Shown: positions 54,405-64,000 of the stretch, piece by piece
How positions within the stretch are numbered: position 1 is the first letter of the stretch
How the letters are laid out: each line of letters opens with the position of its first letter
Made by a program: the position numbers and the translations under genes
Notes under the pieces: generated by a model
The model's database searches: none
Seen by the model: only the letters and a program-made list of their open reading frames with translations
What the model was told of the DNA's origin: nothing
From: Chitinophaga vietnamensis
Lineage (GTDB): Bacteria > Bacteroidota > Bacteroidia > Chitinophagales > Chitinophagaceae
Length of the DNA stretch: 64,000 bases
NCBI RefSeq assembly: GCF_902167635.1
Contig: NZ_CABHMS010000003.1
Location: forward strand, 62,001 to 126,000
Direction of reading: 5' to 3'

Positions 54405-55148
54405 ATGAACGCTATTATCCTGGCGGCAGGGAAAGGAAGCAGGTTATTGCCCCTGACCACGCACACGCCGAAACCCTTGGTAAAAGTAGGTGGCCAGCCT
54501 ATCATTGAAAGACAAATTGAATTTCTACTGGCAAGAGACGTTTCAGAAATATATATTGTGACGGGCTATATGCACGAACGGTTTTCTTATCTGAAAGAGA
54601 AGTACGGGGTACATCTGGTGTATAATGATGCCTATGAACAATGCAACAACATCTACTCGCTCTGGTTGTGCCGGGAGTATCTTTATGAAACTTATATTAT
54701 AGAAGGTGACGTTTATCTGAATAAAAATTTCCTTCAGCAGCATCTTACTGGATCGGCTTATTTCACGGGTATTAAACAAGATATTGCCAGGGAGTGGGTG
54801 ATTGAATTTGATAATCACGTTTATAATATTATCAATGGTAATCTCACCGAACTCGGCGAAGCCCGGTGTAATGCAGGAGATTATATTATGTCGGGTATAT
54901 CGTTTTGGAATGCGGAAGCTACCGCTTTTATAAAGAAAGAGCTGACGGACAGGATAACCGCCTATTTGAGCGGGGTTGCTCCTGATATCGGAAATCAGTA
55001 CTGGGACCAGATTGTGATAGATAATATTCTCCTGTTACATATCGCAGTGATAAAAATTGCCTCTGATGATTGGTTTGAAGTGGATAAAATAGATGACCTC
55101 AAATTGGCAGAAAATAATCGAATCACATCAGTTGTAACGCTTAAGTAG
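54405..55148 (+). CDS. licC: LicC-like CTP:phosphocholine cytidylyltransferase
   Basis: 247 aa nucleotidyltransferase. The nucleotide motif LAAGKGSRL lies at the N-terminus, TPKPLVKVGGQPI follows, and the acceptor region has NNIYSLWLCREYL, typical of LicC rather than sugar nucleotidyltransferases. It makes CDP-choline from phosphocholine and CTP. It leads the plus-strand cluster with two glycosyltransferase genes and a GT10 gene, and sits 6 nt before the tandem glycosyltransferase. Confidence 0.8.
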   Translation: MNAIILAAGKGSRLLPLTTHTPKPLVKVGGQPIIERQIEFLLARDVSEIYIVTGYMHERFSYLKEKYGVHLVYNDAYEQCNNIYSLWLCREYLYETYIIEGDVYLNKNFLQQHLTGSAYFTGIKQDIAREWVIEFDNHVYNIINGNLTELGEARCNAGDYIMSGISFWNAEATAFIKKELTDRITAYLSGVAPDIGNQYWDQIVIDNILLLHIAVIKIASDDWFEVDKIDDLKLAENNRITSVVTLK

Positions 55149-55154
55149 TTTCCC

Positions 55155-56453
55155 ATGCAATACCCGTTTCCTATTCCAACGTATATTATTCTCAACGAAA
55201 AAAAGTATCCTGGTATTGAGGCATATGCCAGAAATACATTCGCCGACCGCAACGAGTTTGCAGTGACGTTTTGCAACGAGCGTGAGAGTGAAGGGTGGTG
55301 GAACACCGTAGCCCGTATCCTTCGCGGCTTGCCGGACGATGGACCTGAACTGGTGCTGATAGGCGAAGGCGATCATCTATTTACTGCCGATTATTCTCCA
55401 GCATACCTGGCTGAGAGTATCAATGCTGCAAAGCATATGGATGCCGATATTCTGATTGGCGGCGCCAGCAGCTTTGATAATGCGATAAGGGTGGCAGAAC
55501 ATTTATATTGGGTAGATGGTTTTGATGGTTTTCAGTTTATTATCTTCTTTCGAAAATTCTTTCAACCGGTATTGGCAGCTACCGGCGGAAGTGGCGATGA
55601 TGTTAACTTGAAAGCATACAGGCCTCAGGGACGCAAGCTGCTCGTTCATCCATTTGTGTCTATTCGCCGCGATACAATAGACGCAGGAATAGCCCGCAAC
55701 ATGTTTGAACACAGCGCCGCCAAGGTAGATAGCATTAACAAGATTTCCAATTATTACAGGCTCTTATCACGTACTCCGATCGGACTGAGTACAGAAGATA
55801 TGGAGCAGGTTTGTATCCCTACATATGTTATCAACCTTCCCGAAAGAGTAGAAAGGCGAGAACATATCAGGAATGAATTCAATGGAAGAGACGAATTTGA
55901 AGTGACGATCGTTCCAGCCTGCAAACACAAGATCGGCGCTGTTGGCCTATGGCAGACCATCAGGAAAATATTGGAGATCGCTTCAGCTGGCGATGACGAC
56001 ATCATTATTATTTGTGAAGATGATCATCAGTTCACAGAATCCTATTCGAAAGAACTTTTTCTCCGGAATGTGGCAGAGGCCTATAGTCAGGGCGCCGGGC
56101 TGCTGATAGGAGGGATCGGACACTTTACACAGGCGATACCTGTTACCACCACCCGTTACTGGATTGATGTTTTTTGGTCAACACAGTTCCTCGTGCTTTT
56201 CCGAAAGAGCTTCGACAAGATTTTATCCAGTGAGTTTGACGACACCGTAACCGCAGACGATTTTCTTTCTGAAATCATCGATGAGAAAATGGTCTTTTTC
56301 CCCTTTATATCCATTCAGAAAGACTTTGGGTATTCCGATATTAGCAACAGGAATGAAATAAGGGAAACTCCAGATATTTTTACGCGTTGCGAAAACCGTT
56401 TAAGACATACGGTACATATTCACGAAAAGCATGGATTCGTTCCGGAAACATAA
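55155..56453 (+). CDS. Tandem glycosyltransferase with two GT-A-like domains
   Basis: 432 aa made of two homologous halves (about 1-220 and 221-432). Both begin IPTY[IV]I and carry the pattern VLIGEGDHLF / IIICEDDHQF, LLIGG-like DILIGGASSF / LLIGGIGHFT, and FFRKFF / LFRKSF. The second half keeps the acidic EDD expected of a GT25-type DxD site; the first has EGD and may be inactive. Such proteins transfer sugars to lipopolysaccharide-like glycans. It lies 6 nt after licC. Confidence 0.75.
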   Translation: MQYPFPIPTYIILNEKKYPGIEAYARNTFADRNEFAVTFCNERESEGWWNTVARILRGLPDDGPELVLIGEGDHLFTADYSPAYLAESINAAKHMDADILIGGASSFDNAIRVAEHLYWVDGFDGFQFIIFFRKFFQPVLAATGGSGDDVNLKAYRPQGRKLLVHPFVSIRRDTIDAGIARNMFEHSAAKVDSINKISNYYRLLSRTPIGLSTEDMEQVCIPTYVINLPERVERREHIRNEFNGRDEFEVTIVPACKHKIGAVGLWQTIRKILEIASAGDDDIIIICEDDHQFTESYSKELFLRNVAEAYSQGAGLLIGGIGHFTQAIPVTTTRYWIDVFWSTQFLVLFRKSFDKILSSEFDDTVTADDFLSEIIDEKMVFFPFISIQKDFGYSDISNRNEIRETPDIFTRCENRLRHTVHIHEKHGFVPET

Positions 56454-56487
56454 ATACCCGGTTGATCCTCCAGGAATTTTGAACATT

Positions 56488-57702
56488 ATGCTTATATATA
56501 AAATACGTCAGGAGCGTGTAGATGGCTTGTCCCCTATACCGATTCATGGAATCAAGTTGATTGATGTAAACAAAGTAGCGTTTGTTCCGGATGATCCGCT
56601 TCACTTGGATCGCGATTTCATGCGCAGCAAGTATGGATTCAGTATCTCGGGATATGAATGCGAATTATTTGCTACTCATTATCATATCTGGCAGCAGTTT
56701 GAACAAACAGATGCCCCCTATTGCCTGGTGATGGAAGATACAGCACACTTCGCTGAAACGTTTGGTGAACAGTTGAACAACATCCGTGAGATGCTTGAAG
56801 AAGACGGAGAATGGGATGTGCTTTTCCCATTTGAACCGGGTGAAGAGGGGAAAGTACCTAATCCACATTATCTGCTCGGATATTACTGGGGCCTGCAAGC
56901 CTATTTTATAAGCAGAAAGGGAGTGGCTGGATTGCTTGGCATTAAAGAGATCAGGCAGCCTGTTGATGAAGAGATATTGACAATGTCAATGGAAGGCAGA
57001 CTGGAAGTGGATTGTACGCAGTTGGATTGTTTTGTTTACTCGGAAAATACACATCAGCTGAAGCAGAGGAATGATGCACTGAGAGAAGCGGCATTTATGA
57101 TGGATGGGTGGTCGGTGTTGCATAAGCAGCAGATAAGGGAGATGATGCAGATCATCAGCCGTATTGCCATGGATCATTCAATAGATCTGGTTTTAAGTGA
57201 TGGCTCTTTGCTTGGGCATATCCGGCACAACGGCATTATGCCATGGGATGATGATGTAGACCTGGCTCTGGACAAGGCTGCCTATGAGAAACTGCAGGCT
57301 TTGATAGCAGCCACGAGTGTTTTGAGGACAGGTTTCTTTTTTTGGGGAGATGAGCAAGTGAGATATGCAAAGATATGGTCTGATGAGGGAGAAGATATAC
57401 CAGGTTTTTCCTATAAATTTCCTTTTGTAGACATCTGGTTTTATGAAGAAAGAGAGAAACAGATTATTTTTGAAAGCGGAACGGTTTATCCCCAAGAGAT
57501 ATATAAACCATTTAGTACAGCGGTGTTTGAAGGCGCCAGCTTTAAAATACCGCAAGATCCGTTGAAGTGTCTTGATATCAGCTATTCTCATTGGAGAACT
57601 AAAATTATTGTGTACCCATGGTCTCACCGGTTAGAGCGGGAAGACTTCAATCCCTTGCTGGTAGATATCTCTACAGACAGCTCGGGGAGAATGATATGGT
57701 AG
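56488..57702 (+). CDS. licD: Glycosyltransferase-LicD fusion (phosphocholine transferase)
   Basis: 404 aa from ATG 56488 (MLIYKIRQERVDGLSPIP); a frame from 56431 would overlap the previous gene. The N-terminal part (about 1-205) resembles GT25-type glycosyltransferases (CLVMEDTAHFAETF near 85, YYWGLQAYFISRKG). The C-terminal LicD domain (about 215-404) has SDGSLLGHIRHNGIMPWDDD. LicD transfers phosphocholine from CDP-choline to a sugar, so one protein may both extend and decorate a glycan. Confidence 0.8.
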   Translation: MLIYKIRQERVDGLSPIPIHGIKLIDVNKVAFVPDDPLHLDRDFMRSKYGFSISGYECELFATHYHIWQQFEQTDAPYCLVMEDTAHFAETFGEQLNNIREMLEEDGEWDVLFPFEPGEEGKVPNPHYLLGYYWGLQAYFISRKGVAGLLGIKEIRQPVDEEILTMSMEGRLEVDCTQLDCFVYSENTHQLKQRNDALREAAFMMDGWSVLHKQQIREMMQIISRIAMDHSIDLVLSDGSLLGHIRHNGIMPWDDDVDLALDKAAYEKLQALIAATSVLRTGFFFWGDEQVRYAKIWSDEGEDIPGFSYKFPFVDIWFYEEREKQIIFESGTVYPQEIYKPFSTAVFEGASFKIPQDPLKCLDISYSHWRTKIIVYPWSHRLEREDFNPLLVDISTDSSGRMIW

Positions 57703-57705
57703 GTT

Positions 57706-58578
57706 ATGAAGCATGCAAAGATCAAAGTAAAAGTAACTTGTTTCTGGGAAGATAGCGTATCGCTGATGGAGGCTATCAAGCTCTTTTCCTTTGGCACTGG
57801 TAGCTGGAAGAACATCGAATTTGTGACGCACGACAACTATGATCGTCTGATTATATTAACCCATCCTTATCCCGGCTACGATTACGACCCTGCCCGGGCT
57901 ATCACGGTATTAACGGAGCCACCGGATTCCAGTCATCATATTCCGCATGCTTCATCGGCGGTATTACCTGTGTACCTGGCGCTTCCATTCTGGAGTTGCA
58001 TAGCGGCCAGACATCGCAATAAAATTGAGCGCTTGGGCTTGCGCAAACGGGAATTGTTTTCTGCTGTAACGAGTGAGCTGTACACGATGGAAGGGCATAA
58101 GCGGCGCCTGGAGCTGGTGTGTTTGCTGGATCATGCCATAGCGGCTGGTTTTAGCTTGTGGGGACGACCTTGCGGCATGGGACTGTTACCTCGCCTGCAG
58201 GCATATAAAGGTGAAATTATTGATAAGTATCAGGCATTATGGAATTATAAATATCATTTTGCGTGTGAAAACTCTTTCATCGATAATTATTTTACCGAGA
58301 AGTTTGTTGATCCTGTTATTGCTGAGTGCCTGTGTTTTTACGACGGATGCACCAACCTGGAATCTTTTGTTGATTCGAGAGCCTTTGTACGGATAGATGT
58401 GAGAAATCCGGAACAGGCGCTGGACGTGATAATCAGATCGATCAGGGATGGTGAGCGCGCTAAGAGGATCAGGTTTGTGAGAGAACAAAAGACACGGTTA
58501 TTGTATCATTTAAATCCTTTGAATATTATTTGGATGGTAATAAATGAGCAGGATGTTTATAAAGCTTGTTTGCTCTGA
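57706..58578 (+). CDS. GT10 alpha-fucosyltransferase-like protein
   Basis: 290 aa. The C-terminal signature YKYHFACENSFIDNYFTEKF is the GT10 fucosyltransferase motif (acidic residue, ENS, then YxTEK), followed by AFVRIDVRNPEQALDVI. It would use GDP-fucose to fucosylate a surface glycan. It begins 3 nt after the LicD-type gene and its 3' end overlaps the convergent hydrolase gene by 22 nt. Confidence 0.8.
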   Translation: MKHAKIKVKVTCFWEDSVSLMEAIKLFSFGTGSWKNIEFVTHDNYDRLIILTHPYPGYDYDPARAITVLTEPPDSSHHIPHASSAVLPVYLALPFWSCIAARHRNKIERLGLRKRELFSAVTSELYTMEGHKRRLELVCLLDHAIAAGFSLWGRPCGMGLLPRLQAYKGEIIDKYQALWNYKYHFACENSFIDNYFTEKFVDPVIAECLCFYDGCTNLESFVDSRAFVRIDVRNPEQALDVIIRSIRDGERAKRIRFVREQKTRLLYHLNPLNIIWMVINEQDVYKACLL

Positions 58579-59621
58579 TCTGCTTGCAGCCACCATTTAT
58601 TTGTTGGCAGCTGCCCGGAGATTGGCGTTCTCTTTCCGATAACCGGATGCAGTATTTTGATCACCGTATATTGGAGCGCTTTTTCCAGTCTGAGTATAGG
58701 CTCCTGCCACGGATGGAGTGCCAGTGAAAATCGTCCCCAATGAACAGGAAGCAGTATCTTGCTTTTCAGGTCTGCGGCGGCCATGGCCATTTGTTCAGGA
58801 CTCATGTGAATATCTGGCCAGTTATTTCCATATTGTCCGCATTCAAGCGCCGCCAGGTCAAAGCTGCCAAATTGCTTTCCAATTTCCTTGAAATGGTTGG
58901 CGTATCCGGAGTCGCCACCAACAAAGATCTTATAGCCATGTATTTCAAGTACAAAAGAGGCCCAAAGTGTTTTGTTATTCGTGAGCCCTCTGCCTGAATT
59001 ATGCCTTGCCGGTGTAGCGGTAAGTTTGATCTCCGGGGAGTGCACAGCTTTTTCCCACCAATCCAGCTCTATGATCCTACCAGGTGGAATTTTTAATCGT
59101 TCAAGGTAGGCGCCAACACCCAGCGGCATATAGAAGCTGGGGCCACTCTTAGCTAATCTCTTGATGGTGTTGAGGTCCAGGTGATCCTGGTGGTCGTGTG
59201 TGATAATCACCACATCAATAGAGGGTAAGTCATCAATATTTATTGAATCAGTTCCTGCAAATTCTCTGATCCTTAAAAGAGGAAAGAAAAAAAGGTTGTT
59301 GCTAAAAACTGGATCTACTAACACATGGCGTCCGTTCACGCTGATCAGGTACGATGAATGACCAAACCAGGTGATTTCCGGATCATGATGACCGTGTGTA
59401 GCAAGATCTTCCCGGACACGCAGGATAGGGTATGCCGGTTTTCTTGACTGGTGTTTTTTCAGGTACAGATAAATGAGAGAAAAAAAATTGGTGCCTTTAA
59501 TATAAGTGTCAGTGGGGATCAGGTTCTGGAAGCGGTTATGCCGAAAGTTGCGGGAATTGTTTATTCGCTGCTGCCTTTCCCGTCTGGACTGAGTCGTATA
59601 ATTGGAAACTATTCTAAGCAT
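58557..59621 (-). CDS. NAPE-PLD-like metallo-beta-lactamase-fold hydrolase
   Basis: 354 aa. Metal-binding motif THDHQDHLDL, upstream substrate segment WFGHSSYLISVNGRHVLVD, PARHNSGRGL, GGDSGYANHFKEIG and LLPVHWGRFSLALHPWQEP all match the NAPE-PLD/UlaG-type group (COG2220). NAPE-PLD cleaves the phosphodiester bond of N-acyl phosphatidylethanolamines. In this context it may act on other phospholipid head groups, such as releasing choline from phosphatidylcholine, but that is inference. It is the last gene of the minus-strand set. Confidence 0.8.
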   Translation of the reverse strand: MLRIVSNYTTQSRRERQQRINNSRNFRHNRFQNLIPTDTYIKGTNFFSLIYLYLKKHQSRKPAYPILRVREDLATHGHHDPEITWFGHSSYLISVNGRHVLVDPVFSNNLFFFPLLRIREFAGTDSINIDDLPSIDVVIITHDHQDHLDLNTIKRLAKSGPSFYMPLGVGAYLERLKIPPGRIIELDWWEKAVHSPEIKLTATPARHNSGRGLTNNKTLWASFVLEIHGYKIFVGGDSGYANHFKEIGKQFGSFDLAALECGQYGNNWPDIHMSPEQMAMAAADLKSKILLPVHWGRFSLALHPWQEPILRLEKALQYTVIKILHPVIGKRTPISGQLPTNKWWLQADQSKQAL

Positions 59622-59630
59622 GAAGATTAT

Positions 59631-60158
59631 TTATTTTAAACAGAAATAGAGCACCGCCGGGGGAATGCCTATTACTGCAAATTCTGTGCGTACGGAATTG
59701 AATACGCCATTGAAATATTGTGGAAAGTACAGAAAAGAAAGCTGGCGGAAGATGCCATCCTCTTTCAGCGCAGTATGGCAATCCATGATGAGATGGTTTC
59801 TTTCTTCAGGTTTGATAAATGAAAGCGGCAAGGTAGAAATAATCAGGTCAACAGAATTTTTTTCGACATAGCGAAGTAAGTGTACAGCCGAGTCATTGAT
59901 GATTTGCAGCCTGGGATCATTGATCTTGTGCAGTACGTTGGCAAATCCCGGTTGGATCTCAAAGCATAGAAGTGAAGCGTCTGGCTGCATTTTTGAGAGG
60001 ATACGCCTGGATACTTTTCCTGTTCCTCCTCCAAGTTCCACAATTGTTTTAGCTCTTTTGAAAGTATCATCATTAGTAAGTTTGTTAATTGCAGTTCGTG
60101 ATGAGCTGATGAATGTGCCAGAAGTGCTGTAGCTCTTTAAGTACTTAATAAGGGACAT
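59631..60158 (-). CDS. PmtA-like phospholipid N-methyltransferase
   Basis: 175 aa class I methyltransferase. The SAM loop is TIVELGGGTGKVSRRIL, preceded by the lipid-type start GTFISSSRTAINKL; LLCFEIQPGFAN and STLPLSFIKPEERN resemble the COG3963 phospholipid methyltransferases, which methylate phosphatidylethanolamine to phosphatidylcholine. It follows the kinase gene and precedes the metallo-hydrolase gene by 9 nt. rRNA-type methyltransferases are a less likely alternative. Confidence 0.78.
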   Translation of the reverse strand: MSLIKYLKSYSTSGTFISSSRTAINKLTNDDTFKRAKTIVELGGGTGKVSRRILSKMQPDASLLCFEIQPGFANVLHKINDPRLQIINDSAVHLLRYVEKNSVDLIISTLPLSFIKPEERNHLIMDCHTALKEDGIFRQLSFLYFPQYFNGVFNSVRTEFAVIGIPPAVLYFCLK

Positions 60159-61062
60159 AGTTGTGTAATTTGAATTTGATTAAATGCAGTAATATGCTGA
60201 GATTGCCGAGCCCTCGATGGTACCTGTTTGCGCCGTAGTTACCGAAGTTGGCGCCGAAGTGTACTTTCACTGCAGACCATAATGACCACAGAATATCCTG
60301 AAGCGCCTTGAAGAGCAGCATATTTTGCAGGTCTACATCTGCTATCGGCCTTGAGAGATATATATACAGGAATATTTCTTCTTCTTCTGTACTCAGATTG
60401 TTTTCTATACAATAAGAGGCGAGATCCCAGAACACATGGTTCATGCCTGCGTATTCCCAATCGATCAGATATGCTTTGCCGCGTGGTGTTAGCAGGATAT
60501 TCTCAGGCACAATATCATTATGACACGGTACCAGCTCGGCAGAAGATGTAGGGAGAAGATGGCGGCAGATAGATGCAAGCTGCTGTTTGACGATCGGGAA
60601 ATCATGGAAGAAAGGGATGTGATAATCGATCAGTACACTTTCGTAGAAGGATATCCTTTCCATAGGGTCAAATGTGTTTTTGAAAGTAATTCCGGATGCA
60701 TGAAGGCGTTGCAACATTCCAGCTACGAGCTGCGATCTTTCTATAAAAGGACAACTTGATAGGGGGATGTTTTCTACGAACCTTGTTAGTTTAATACCGG
60801 AGATGGATTCATAATATATCGTCTCTACGTCAATACCAAGAGAGGAAATCTGCTGCAGCACATCTTTCTCTTCTTTCCGATCAATCAATAAGTTGGCGCC
60901 ACCACCAGGAATTCTGTAAACATATGCGTCCTGTATAGTACATATTTTATAATTGAAATTGGTCATGCCATGCGGAAGCCTATCACAACTTACTACTTCT
61001 TCCAGCAGTATTGATTGTACCCGCGTGATAATGGTATCGGGGGAGAATGTGTTTGTAGTCAT
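60145..61062 (-). CDS. licA: LicA-like choline kinase
   Basis: 305 aa aminoglycoside phosphotransferase-fold kinase. The catalytic and metal motifs are PCHNDIVPENILLTPRGKAY and LIDWEYAGMN, closely like LicA choline kinases; the N-terminal part has MTNFNYKICTIQDAYVYRIP. It phosphorylates choline to phosphocholine. Its 3' end overlaps the methyltransferase ATG by 14 nt, so the two are coupled. It begins the minus-strand set of the phosphocholine cluster. Confidence 0.82.
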   Translation of the reverse strand: MTTNTFSPDTIITRVQSILLEEVVSCDRLPHGMTNFNYKICTIQDAYVYRIPGGGANLLIDRKEEKDVLQQISSLGIDVETIYYESISGIKLTRFVENIPLSSCPFIERSQLVAGMLQRLHASGITFKNTFDPMERISFYESVLIDYHIPFFHDFPIVKQQLASICRHLLPTSSAELVPCHNDIVPENILLTPRGKAYLIDWEYAGMNHVFWDLASYCIENNLSTEEEEIFLYIYLSRPIADVDLQNMLLFKALQDILWSLWSAVKVHFGANFGNYGANRYHRGLGNLSILLHLIKFKLHNYVPY

Positions 61063-61639
61063 AGGAGATATCTGTTTTCGTGGGTTTCATTGTTCTGATT
61101 TGCGGGTGATCTGGGCTAATTACAACAATTTTTTTGGGTAAAACGTGCTTTATAAAAATAGAAAAATTAATGAATAGTTTTCCGTTTTTTTTTGCTTCTT
61201 ATCTTACATCATTCACATGTGATTTCCCTGTAACCATTGATTTATATGGTGTTTGACAGATCAATTTTCCTTGAAAAAAAAATCAGCGCCAAAAATGAAA
61301 TTTCAATATTATTTCACTAATTTCATTTTACTATCATGAAATAAAGATAAACCCGAAGAATCAAACCCTTAAAGAAATCAAATTTTATTTTTGACTTAAA
61401 AAATTGAAGTTGTCTTGTTACGAGCCCTGTGAAGACTGTAATCCATGCAGAGTGACCATTGAGACGGACCTTGTATAACCCGATCTACTTCATTAATAAT
61501 ATCATTAAAGCAGGTGATCGCACATTGTTCCTGAAAGTAAAGATAGCCGAACAGTGAAAATAAATAGTGAGGATAAGAAGGCCTTTGCATTATAACCTTT
61601 TGCCTGTTTTCATTTTCTTGTTTTAAATATTGTTTACGC
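61063..61639. other. AT-rich intergenic region between the cluster and the next peptidase
   Basis: 577 nt of AT-rich sequence between the licA-like gene (divergent) and the S41 gene. It contains runs such as a T9 near 61188 and repeats of ATGAAAT around 61295-61345. The 81-codon minus-strand frame at 61396-61641 overlaps the S41 start and has no good start or family, so I do not call it. I see no terminator or RNA gene here. Confidence 0.4.
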
Positions 61640-63553
61640 ATGAAGCGTCTCAGAAGCTATGCCTTATTGGTAAGTACATTGCTGTGGTCGACGTATGCCT
61701 GTGCACAATGGGATGTGCGCGTAAAGAAGGTAAGTCGGGAGACGGCAATAGACTTGACACATTTTCTGAAGTGGCCGTCAGGTAAAGGTTTTACCTTCTT
61801 TGGGCCTGCTTTTGATCTGCATGAGCAGGTTGAAACAACCGGCTACTATCCGGAGAGATCTTCTTTTCCTGGTGCAATGGACGATACTATATGTAAGGCT
61901 TCCTTACCAAATTGTATCCATCTGGATAAAAGAAATTCATTCCTGTATATTAATTGTTATACAGACAATATTTCGGAATACACCATCGGGTTTGAGGATG
62001 AGAGGGGGCAAGTGTATGCCCGGTCGGTTAAGGTGACATGGGATCAGTATCAACAACCATTGGAAATACCTTTGATGCAACAAGGAGCTGATAGTGTTGC
62101 TGTTAGCAGGCTGTTTGTGAGTATAAAGAAAAAGCAAGCACATGACCCCTGGTCGTTTGTTGTTGGCGAGTTAAGGTTGTATACGCACCGGGTACAGGAT
62201 GAACCAGCGAAAGGATGCTTTTTCTACCAGTTAACAGGTGATGCCGCAAATGCGGCGCCTTCCTATACTATTGCTGAAATAGGCAACTGTTATCCCTTGT
62301 CAGCGTTCACTATCTTCAGAGATACCTACGCGCAGGCATTTGCTTTTCAACCAGCATTTCCGTTATCAGGAGAGCATCTTGAAGATAGCGTTATTGCATT
62401 GTTGCAGCTGATTATTCATAAATATCCATATTATAAAGAACATCACCTGGATAAAAAGCGAATTGTGTCTTTTCTCGATACGCTGGGGAAATCAGGCGTG
62501 TCTTTTGACCGGAAGCTATCTGTAATTGACAGCCTGGCTAGCTCTTTTTCTGATGGACATTTTTATTTAGAGAAAAAATCTCCTGCGCTTAACAGTGGCC
62601 CTGTTTACGTCAAGAGAATCAATGGGCGCCTGGAAGTCATTGCTGTATTTGATCAGGCGCTGCAGGGTAAAGTGAAGCCCGGTGATGAACTTTTGTCGGT
62701 AGATGGCGTACCTGCCAACAGCTATATGAAAACCATCTCCATGCGTTATTATGGTGGCGAACAGGAGCGGGAGAATATGGCGGTATCGCGGCTGTTGTAT
62801 AAAGCGCAGGGCGATTCTACTACTATAGAAGTGATGGATGAAGGGCAAAGAAAGATGGTTAGTTATTATTACAATAAAGCGATTGCTATCCCTGATAATT
62901 TCAAGCCGGTGCATAGAAAGATATCCTGGAAAGATGATGCGTGCTATTACCGCCTGAATAGATGGGATGCGGGCGATTGGCTCTACTTTTATAATCACCG
63001 CGAGCGTATTAGTAAAGCCGGCGCTATCATTTTCGACCTCAGAGGTAATAGCGGAGGACTGGAGGTAGAAGCATTTAAAATGCTCTCCTGTTTTCTGAAA
63101 CAGCCTATATTGATATCCAGGAGCTCCTATGCTTACAGCGACAGTTGTGAAGTGGAAGGCCCTAATGTAGTAGTCCCGAATCAGTTTTTGAATCTTTCAG
63201 ATAAGAAGGTGCTCATACTCGTAGATAATAACACTGCCTGCGCATCGGAAATTTTTACCAGCACACTCAGGAACTATGCCCGGGCAACAGTGATCGGCAA
63301 TGAGAAAACTGCTGGCTCCTATGCAAGTGGCGATATATTCTATCTCCCTTTGAATATTACTATGCACGTGAATATCCTGAACAAATTTTCGCTCAATAAC
63401 AAGATGGGTGGAAGTATAGAAATGAGAGGGATCAACCCGGATGTCCAGGTTCCTCTGGAAAGTTACCGGGACCTTTATCCTTATGATGATAAAATACTCA
63501 GCGTAGCATACAGCTTGCTCTCAAAAGAGCGCCAGGCGACCGTTCATAGATGA
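61640..63553 (+). CDS. S41-family peptidase next to a putative RiPP gene
   Basis: 637 aa. Signal peptide about 1-22 (ALLVSTLLWSTYACA). A long N-terminal region (20-330) is followed by a PDZ-like segment (GKVKPGDELLSVDGVPANSY) and the S41 domain: IIFDLRGNSGGLEVEAFKM, then VDNNTACASEIFTSTLRNYA with the catalytic Ser, and EKTAGSYASGDI. Its stop is only 89 nt before the putative RiPP precursor, on the same strand, so a processing role is conceivable. Confidence 0.85.
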   Translation: MKRLRSYALLVSTLLWSTYACAQWDVRVKKVSRETAIDLTHFLKWPSGKGFTFFGPAFDLHEQVETTGYYPERSSFPGAMDDTICKASLPNCIHLDKRNSFLYINCYTDNISEYTIGFEDERGQVYARSVKVTWDQYQQPLEIPLMQQGADSVAVSRLFVSIKKKQAHDPWSFVVGELRLYTHRVQDEPAKGCFFYQLTGDAANAAPSYTIAEIGNCYPLSAFTIFRDTYAQAFAFQPAFPLSGEHLEDSVIALLQLIIHKYPYYKEHHLDKKRIVSFLDTLGKSGVSFDRKLSVIDSLASSFSDGHFYLEKKSPALNSGPVYVKRINGRLEVIAVFDQALQGKVKPGDELLSVDGVPANSYMKTISMRYYGGEQERENMAVSRLLYKAQGDSTTIEVMDEGQRKMVSYYYNKAIAIPDNFKPVHRKISWKDDACYYRLNRWDAGDWLYFYNHRERISKAGAIIFDLRGNSGGLEVEAFKMLSCFLKQPILISRSSYAYSDSCEVEGPNVVVPNQFLNLSDKKVLILVDNNTACASEIFTSTLRNYARATVIGNEKTAGSYASGDIFYLPLNITMHVNILNKFSLNNKMGGSIEMRGINPDVQVPLESYRDLYPYDDKILSVAYSLLSKERQATVHR

Positions 63554-63642: not shown

Positions 63643-63870
63643 ATGGACAACCAGAAAAAAGAAAATCAAAAGAAAAAAATGAGGGACCTGATCAAACCCC
63701 AAAGAATTGATCTGACCCTCACAGGTTCAAATGAGTACAGGAATCTGGTGATTCCTTATTGCAACAGCGGCTACAGCAACACCAGCAGTGGCAGGACCTG
63801 CGAAACAGGCTACTCTTCAAATGCCTGGTGCGTAACCAGCCCCACAGGTGGAGATGAAGTGCTGTTCTGA
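63643..63870 (+). CDS. Putative RiPP precursor peptide
   Basis: 75 aa (ATG 63643). The N-terminus is basic and leader-like (MDNQKKENQKKKMRDLIKPQ). From about residue 37 the sequence is rich in Ser, Thr, Gly, Asn and has three Cys: C40, C53, C63 (YCNSGYSNTSSGRTCETGY, then SSNAWCVTSPTGGDEVLF). The alternation of Cys with Ser/Thr suits lanthionine, sactionine or related modification. No double-Gly leader cleavage site is seen upstream of the core. It is followed by a terminator and the start of another gene. Class is uncertain. Confidence 0.6.
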   Translation: MDNQKKENQKKKMRDLIKPQRIDLTLTGSNEYRNLVIPYCNSGYSNTSSGRTCETGYSSNAWCVTSPTGGDEVLF

Positions 63871-63884
63871 TGTGTTTTACCAAG

Positions 63885-63923
63885 GGTCATTGCGGAGCTT
63901 TCTGTTCCGTAATGGCCTTTTTT
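63885..63923 (+). terminator. Terminator between the putative precursor and the next gene
   Basis: A 12-bp stem (63885-63896 / 63906-63917) with two G-T pairs and a 9-nt loop, followed by six T (63918-63923). It would stop most transcripts after the small gene, keeping precursor mRNA more abundant than the downstream gene, as is common in RiPP operons. Confidence 0.75.
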
Positions 63924-63944
63924 CTCACGCCACAAAGTTCTGTT

Positions 63945-64000
63945 ATGATACCCGATCTTAAATTAAGCTATTATAATTTCTTTATTCCGCACCCGACAAG
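63945..64000 (+). CDS. Start of a further gene, possibly a peptide maturase (cut by the right edge)
   Basis: ATG 63945 gives MIPDLKLSYYNFFIPHPT before the window ends. The xxSxYNxxIP start resembles the N-termini of radical-SAM/SPASM peptide maturases of Bacteroidota RiPP loci, but 18 residues are too few for assignment. It is the first thing to check to class the precursor at 63643. Confidence 0.4.
   Translation, partial: MIPDLKLSYYNFFIPHPT

Follow-up and report, generated by a model that had tools for sequence, protein, structure and literature searches.

A lic-type phosphocholine gene cluster of Chitinophaga vietnamensis and the possible source of its choline

Lic-type decoration of bacteria with phosphocholine depends on choline from outside, according to the available part of PMC10434233. 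Where, then, would the choline come from in a lic-type cluster whose choline kinase gene, licA, lies in one run with genes of lipid type, and onto what would the phosphocholine be placed? These questions are raised by positions 54405..61062 of a 64,000-nucleotide stretch of Chitinophaga vietnamensis (Bacteroidota; Chitinophagaceae), here called the window (RefSeq assembly GCF_902167635.1, contig NZ_CABHMS010000003.1, positions 62,001 to 126,000 of the forward strand). We read the locus, tentatively as a whole, as a lic-type phosphocholine module, probably transferred, in which the licA operon would supply choline from phosphatidylethanolamine (PE). Of the chemistry at its core, predicted phosphocholine activation and transfer, we are confident.

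Gene layout and the phosphocholine core

Two runs of genes meet end to end. Lengths are in amino acids (aa), GT stands for glycosyltransferase and SAM for S-adenosylmethionine.

54405..55148, plus strand: licC-like CTP:phosphocholine cytidylyltransferase, 247 aa (PDB 1jyk, E 2.3e-49)
55155..56453, plus strand: tandem GT25-like glycosyltransferase, 432 aa, whose halves are homologous (33% identical)
56431..57702, plus strand: GT25-LicD fusion, likely phosphocholine transferase, 423 aa (LicD 2.7e-18, GT25 8.7e-7)
57706..58578, plus strand: GT10-like glycosyltransferase, 290 aa, borderline (Pfam GT10 24.1 against 23.9 bits)
58557..58578: 22 nt shared by the two converging runs
58557..59621, minus strand: NAPE-PLD-like hydrolase of metallo-beta-lactamase fold, 354 aa (PDB 4qn9, 1.5e-40)
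59631..60158, minus strand: small SAM methyltransferase of OlsG/PmtA kind, 175 aa (NCBIfam OlsG, 1.4e-19)
60145..61062, minus strand: licA-like choline kinase, 305 aa (PDB 4r77, 5.8e-53)

The first-pass annotation had described four plus-strand genes converging, with a 22-nt overlap, on three minus-strand genes. The open reading frames (ORFs) bear this out in coordinates and strands, and the names given to the seven genes are consistent with their Pfam/NCBIfam and PDB matches. In the minus-strand run, licA and the methyltransferase gene share 14 nt (60145-60158), and the hydrolase gene begins 9 nt after the methyltransferase gene stops. Overlapping or abutting in this way, as genes of a single operon would be expected to, all three appear to be packed as one operon. 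Scans for promoters (18 found, 18.8 expected) and terminators (10 found, 6.0 expected, sd 2.8) came out near chance. TTTG...TANNTTTG, which we take to be the Bacteroidota-type promoter motif, has one match in the window where 1.57 are expected, and TANNTTTG alone has 51 where 40.3 are expected.

The closest solved relative of the window LicA is pneumococcal LicA (4r77), and it also matches the choline kinase family (1e-15). The available part of PMC4364537 names as choline-binding or catalytic Thr29, Asp176, Val178, Asn181, Asp194, Glu196, Tyr197, Glu213, Trp251, Trp254 and Tyr268 of the pneumococcal enzyme. The window protein is identical at all 11, and at one of eight further positions checked that contact the nucleotide or with 2-(N-morpholino)ethanesulfonate (31, 32, 43, 45, 89, 90, 91 and 96). 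LicC is closest to pneumococcal LicC (1jyk, over residues 2-236) and carries an NTP_transferase match (2.5e-14). We find the predicted identities of LicA and LicC convincing.

The fusion protein scores 67.3 bits on LicD (cut-off 22.6; best stretch residues 248-293) and 29.4 bits on GT25. Its 432-aa neighbour scores 23.4 bits on Pfam GT25, just below the cut-off of 24, and its halves are homologous (1.3e-16), which makes it a tandem protein. As the families suggest, LicA would phosphorylate choline and LicC would make CDP-choline; the tandem GT25 and GT10-like enzymes would lay down sugar, onto which the GT25-LicD fusion would transfer phosphocholine. That LicA, LicC and LicD activate and transfer phosphocholine was also the view of the first-pass annotation, and homology and residues support it.

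A possible choline supply within the locus

Operon structure and family membership suggest, as the most likely course, that the methyltransferase would turn the cell's own PE into an N-methylated lipid, from which the hydrolase would then release choline or methylated ethanolamine for LicA. As the genome encodes a phosphatidylserine decarboxylase (2.9e-43), PE is expected in the cell. We therefore entertain, tentatively, the possibility that the two enzymes form a choline supply.

The hydrolase belongs to Lactamase_B_2 (6.4e-41) and finds human NAPE-PLD as its solved relative (4qn9). It keeps D147, H185, H187, D189, H190, H253, D284 and H343 of the human enzyme, which we take to be metal-binding or essential, and differs at W218, Q320 and H331, presumably residues of the pocket. 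It is 37-48% identical (median 46) to 20 other copies; between those copies, identities run over 36-73% (median 49), so the window protein is no clear outlier. By eye, it lacks the hydrophobic N-terminus seen in several of the other copies. The genome holds one other paralogue, with a GC content at third codon positions (GC3) of 0.574, whereas the window copy has the low GC3 of the cluster.

The methyltransferase shares SAM, LP and PP motifs with six relatives, and 16 columns are invariant in the seven sequences. The relatives score 74-121 bits on OlsG and 59-74 on PmtA; with 28.9 bits on PmtA, the window protein stands furthest of the seven from that family. A KsgA match (25.4 bits) lies far below the cut-off, and an rRNA target appears less likely than a lipid one. 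On an Enterobacter plasmid (NZ_CP094842.1), a gene for an OlsG/PmtA-like methyltransferase stands between genes annotated as undecaprenyl-diphosphatase and DedA. AlphaFold2 run without alignments gave mean pLDDT (predicted local distance difference test) scores of 34 for the methyltransferase and 30 for the hydrolase, and the models were not used.

Several results weigh against a supply of this kind, those on the enzymes and their distribution here and those on import below. The methyltransferase falls short of the curated cut-offs of both candidate families: OlsG (NF041658; 1.4e-19, 70.6 of 350 bits) and PmtA (NF045881; 7.1e-7, 28.9 of 250 bits). It lacks the P of the xPSS motif, kept in five of six relatives, and the N of NxPPA, kept in all six. 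Hydrolase homologues (E≤1e-30) occur in 144 of the 244 genomes of a family sample that includes our own genome, commonly without lic genes, and no methyltransferase, LicA, LicC or LicB match was found around any of 20 sampled copies in the stretches fetched. Animal NAPE-PLD is inactive on other phospholipids, as stated in the accessible portion of PMC4244089. The accessible part of PMC12214272 sets NAPE-PLD against phospholipases D that use phosphatidylcholine, and has it accept many N-aldehyde-modified PEs.

The arrangement is rare. In the family sample (GT-LicD, LicA and methyltransferase at E≤1e-10, LicC at E≤1e-15), matches to GT-LicD were found in 3 of the 244 genomes, to LicA in 7, to the methyltransferase in 5 and to LicC in 3. 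Our own genome alone is common to the four sets, and none of the 243 others gave matches to even two of these genes. At E≤1e-20, LicA is found in one of 395 genomes of the phylum, again our own; the other six LicA matches of the family are 24-31% identical. Five of these six LicA-like kinases, each in its own genome, lie between a permease-like gene and one of 814-836 aa, a recurrent three-gene unit; the one large neighbour scanned carries DAO and GCV_T domains. Plasmid searches returned 107 records for LicA, 28 for the methyltransferase, 228 for the hydrolase, 161 for the radical SAM enzyme described below and none for the tandem GT; in the four plasmid neighbourhoods examined, no second cluster gene was seen by annotation. 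No second genome with this gene arrangement was met among those sampled. The finding rests on one genome, and therefore no conserved synteny supports the unit.

Import offers another answer, and one that we consider about as likely: ordinary lic chemistry on choline brought in by a ChoX-like or other importer, with the methyltransferase and hydrolase serving otherwise, for example to make phosphatidylcholine as a membrane lipid or in lipid remodelling. The first-pass annotation had seen no importer, and had set this against classical lic loci, which carry one. At the locus the absence holds, with no importer-family match in any of the seven ORFs. In the genome, where BCCT, OpuAC and LicB were the importer families looked for and others were not searched, BCCT is absent, and the LicB query gives only one match, an EamA-family protein (27% identity, 1.8e-9). 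That protein (C4:291057) might be a LicB but was not accepted as one: its identity is low, and in NCBIfam it best matches a general amine/amino-acid transporter; an APH-type kinase gene adjoins it, with APH(2'') matches below cut-offs.

For the genome as a whole the absence does not hold, as OpuAC (PF04069) has four matches at three places. Two of them are the same lipoprotein gene, present in both copies of an identical stretch of contig C7. In NCBIfam this lipoprotein best matches TIGR03414, the choline ABC binding protein (2.7e-39, 135.2 of 379 bits), with ProX behind it (4.3e-15), and this favors import. Yet the score is below the cut-off, no permease or ATPase gene was seen by eye beside the lipoprotein gene in the 14 kb fetched, and the second copy is an inverted duplicate. 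The duplicated stretch itself (C7:23000-37000 and 88000-102000) is 13.8 kb, identical and inverted on one contig, either a real duplication or an assembly error. The other two matches fall in one gene on contig C10 (within C10:87000-101000), which encodes a permease fused to a binding protein and is accompanied by an ATPase gene. As a gene for EgtB (545 bits, cut-off 360) and one for a histidine-specific methyltransferase adjoin it, this importer is probably for ergothioneine, in a locus of synthesis and uptake, and presumably of the EgtUV type.

How general is an importer at lic loci? Searching with patterns of the window LicA gave 181 loci, of which the best 80 were taken, nearly all from Bacillota and 47 of them at least 19 kb long. 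LicC matches occur in 63, LicB matches in 58 and both in 49. Importer adjacency is thus frequent but not universal, as a LicB match is absent from 14 of the 63 LicC-bearing loci, a further point for import. Neither the methyltransferase nor the hydrolase is found in any of the 80. The absence of a LicB match is therefore not unusual, whereas the presence of two lipid-type genes is.

In sum, operon structure, the expected presence of PE, the absence of BCCT and of any close LicB, and the meeting in this one genome of two rare genes, those of LicA and the methyltransferase, speak for the built-in supply that the first-pass annotation had proposed; the methyltransferase scores, the wide spread of the hydrolase family outside lic loci, which also suits import, and the selectivity of NAPE-PLD speak against it. 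Import leaves the two lipid-type genes in the licA operon unexplained. If the supply is real, a locus in which LicA is tied to methylation of a lipid and release of its headgroup would be a self-sufficient version of Lic decoration, which could explain phosphocholine decoration where choline is scarce.

The low-GC3 island and the acceptor

The seven genes have GC3 values of 0.426-0.481. Among 37 other ORFs of the window (at least 170 aa; mean 0.609, sd 0.060) two are as low, and among 48 ORFs from six other loci of the genome (mean 0.591), one of these loci being the downstream part of the low-GC3 island itself, one is. The lic gene set was probably acquired by transfer. In a LicA tree the window protein has a long branch that is not resolved; measured by path, its nearest rows are those of Eubacterium tenue and Bacillota. 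No donor is therefore named.

The island spans 54405-77556 and so continues past the window. Its plus-strand ORFs from the S41 peptidase gene to about 77556 have GC3 values of 0.41-0.57, and the next two large ORFs of 0.61-0.62. The genes below suggest a locus for a ribosomally synthesized and post-translationally modified peptide (RiPP).

61063..61639: AT-rich gap (31.5% GC) from which licA and the peptidase gene diverge
61640..63553, plus strand: S41-family peptidase, 637 aa, heading the neighboring plus-strand run (Pfam S41 3.9e-20; GC3 0.453)
63643..63870, plus strand: Cys/Ser/Thr-bearing ORF, 75 aa, candidate RiPP precursor (FlmA match, E 0.21)
63870..64000, plus strand: 5' part of a radical SAM/SPASM maturase gene, which runs beyond the window to 65393 (FlmE/OhkG 9e-89)
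65387-67174, plus strand: subtilase (QhpE 2.7e-36)
67119-68933, plus strand: ABC exporter
68958-70553, plus strand: tryptophan-halogenase-family flavoprotein (6.7e-111; QhpG 1.4e-8)
75522-76877, plus strand: second tandem GT25 (35% over 400 aa to the first tandem GT)

For the S41 peptidase, none of 12 other genomes from the genus gave a match at E≤1e-30. The 75-aa ORF has three Cys and many Ser, Thr and Tyr residues, and its sole NCBIfam match at E≤1 is the FlmA family RiPP (NF052472; 11.7 of 30 bits). Standing beside an FlmE-like enzyme (FlmE/OhkG, NF052473; 298.4 of 500 bits, below the cut-off), this match hints that the ORF may be a RiPP precursor. Further island genes include sigma-factor-like, outer-membrane-protein and Porph_ging ones, and a small gene with no Pfam match that by eye resembles GT2. 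The AT-rich gap holds, again by eye, a 24-codon ORF with a TTG start and four Cys (LKLSCYEPCEDCNPC..., 61404-61478, plus strand), which may be either chance or a relic precursor. A radical SAM enzyme, a subtilisin-like protease, an ABC exporter and a flavoprotein serve one small peptide in the system covered by the available part of PMC7876137.

That the island runs on into a RiPP-type locus reopens the question of the acceptor, which may be a surface glycan or the peptide of this locus. Among the sampled family genomes, only one other GT-LicD match is near full length (34%, residues 54-422, genome G209). It ends a contig (C248) with nonribosomal peptide synthetase (NRPS) genes encoding condensation, adenylation and thioesterase domains, together with a cupin/JmjC gene and a CmlA-type diiron hydroxylase gene. 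Together, the RiPP-type island and this NRPS-linked homologue make peptide tailoring a genuine alternative to decoration of a surface glycan. The tandem GTs would then glycosylate the RiPP-locus peptide and GT-LicD would add phosphocholine, whichever the source of choline. The shared low-GC3 island and the second tandem GT25, placed beyond the RiPP genes, are in line with this. However, no result ties the lic genes to a peptide, the licA genes lie on the opposite strand and diverge from the RiPP run, and neither LicA nor LicC is matched in the genome that carries the NRPS locus. We regard a peptide acceptor as possible, though less likely than not. It is a good deal less likely that all these parts come together, in a RiPP peptide cross-linked by the radical SAM enzyme, glycosylated by two tandem GT25s and capped with phosphocholine whose choline comes from PE within the locus. 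Were the neighboring peptide the acceptor, phosphocholine chemistry would extend to RiPP natural products, and the joint version would yield a choline-autonomous, zwitterionic peptide product.

Lesser alternatives and known systems

The methyltransferase may act on ornithine lipid or another substrate, its pairing with the hydrolase being unrelated to choline. OlsG does top its NCBIfam matches, at 70.6 bits to 28.9 for PmtA, but both scores are far below cut-off, four of the six relatives score within about 10 bits on the two families, and the methyltransferase gene overlaps licA. We consider this unlikely.

For LicC, the accessible text of PMC6697681 contrasts Asp105 and Asp192 with Glu in PntC. 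The window LicC has Glu at the Asp105 position and keeps Asp192. Glu at the former is also present in 5 of 52 LicC matches lying within 3 kb of LicB, and so does not exclude phosphocholine. Activation of 2-aminoethylphosphonate in the manner of PntC, to which the one Glu points, is thus very improbable, with Asp192 kept, Glu occurring in LicB-linked LicC matches, LicA in the same cluster and, in a search confined to the seven genes, no match to a phosphonate family.

The combination of lic genes with genes of PmtA and NAPE-PLD type was not known as a described system at first pass, and none such appeared among the papers listed by full-text searches of open-licence literature. In the available part of PMC10434233, Lic-1 and PmtA figure as two distinct routes; neither 'phospholipase' nor 'Bacteroid' occurs in the main text of that paper. 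The window hydrolase shares with NAPE-PLD the fold family and the eight residues taken to be metal-binding or essential; it differs in being bacterial and in its changed pocket positions. With the PmtA route to phosphatidylcholine the locus shares a small SAM methyltransferase of broadly similar kind, whose gene here adjoins that of a choline kinase and which stays below the PmtA and OlsG cut-offs. The neighboring genes resemble the Qhp set and FlmE/OhkG-type RiPP loci in the radical SAM/SPASM enzyme, subtilisin-like protease, ABC exporter and flavoprotein, and in the small Cys-bearing ORF beside maturation genes. They differ in having lic genes and tandem GT25s alongside, and their matches are below the curated cut-offs. 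Closest of all in its core is Lic-1 (licABCD), with which the locus shares the LicA, LicC and LicD families and the logic of CDP-choline. It departs from Lic-1 in its lack of licB, in the fusion of LicD to GT25, in its two convergent gene runs and in the methyltransferase and hydrolase genes that stand in its licA run.

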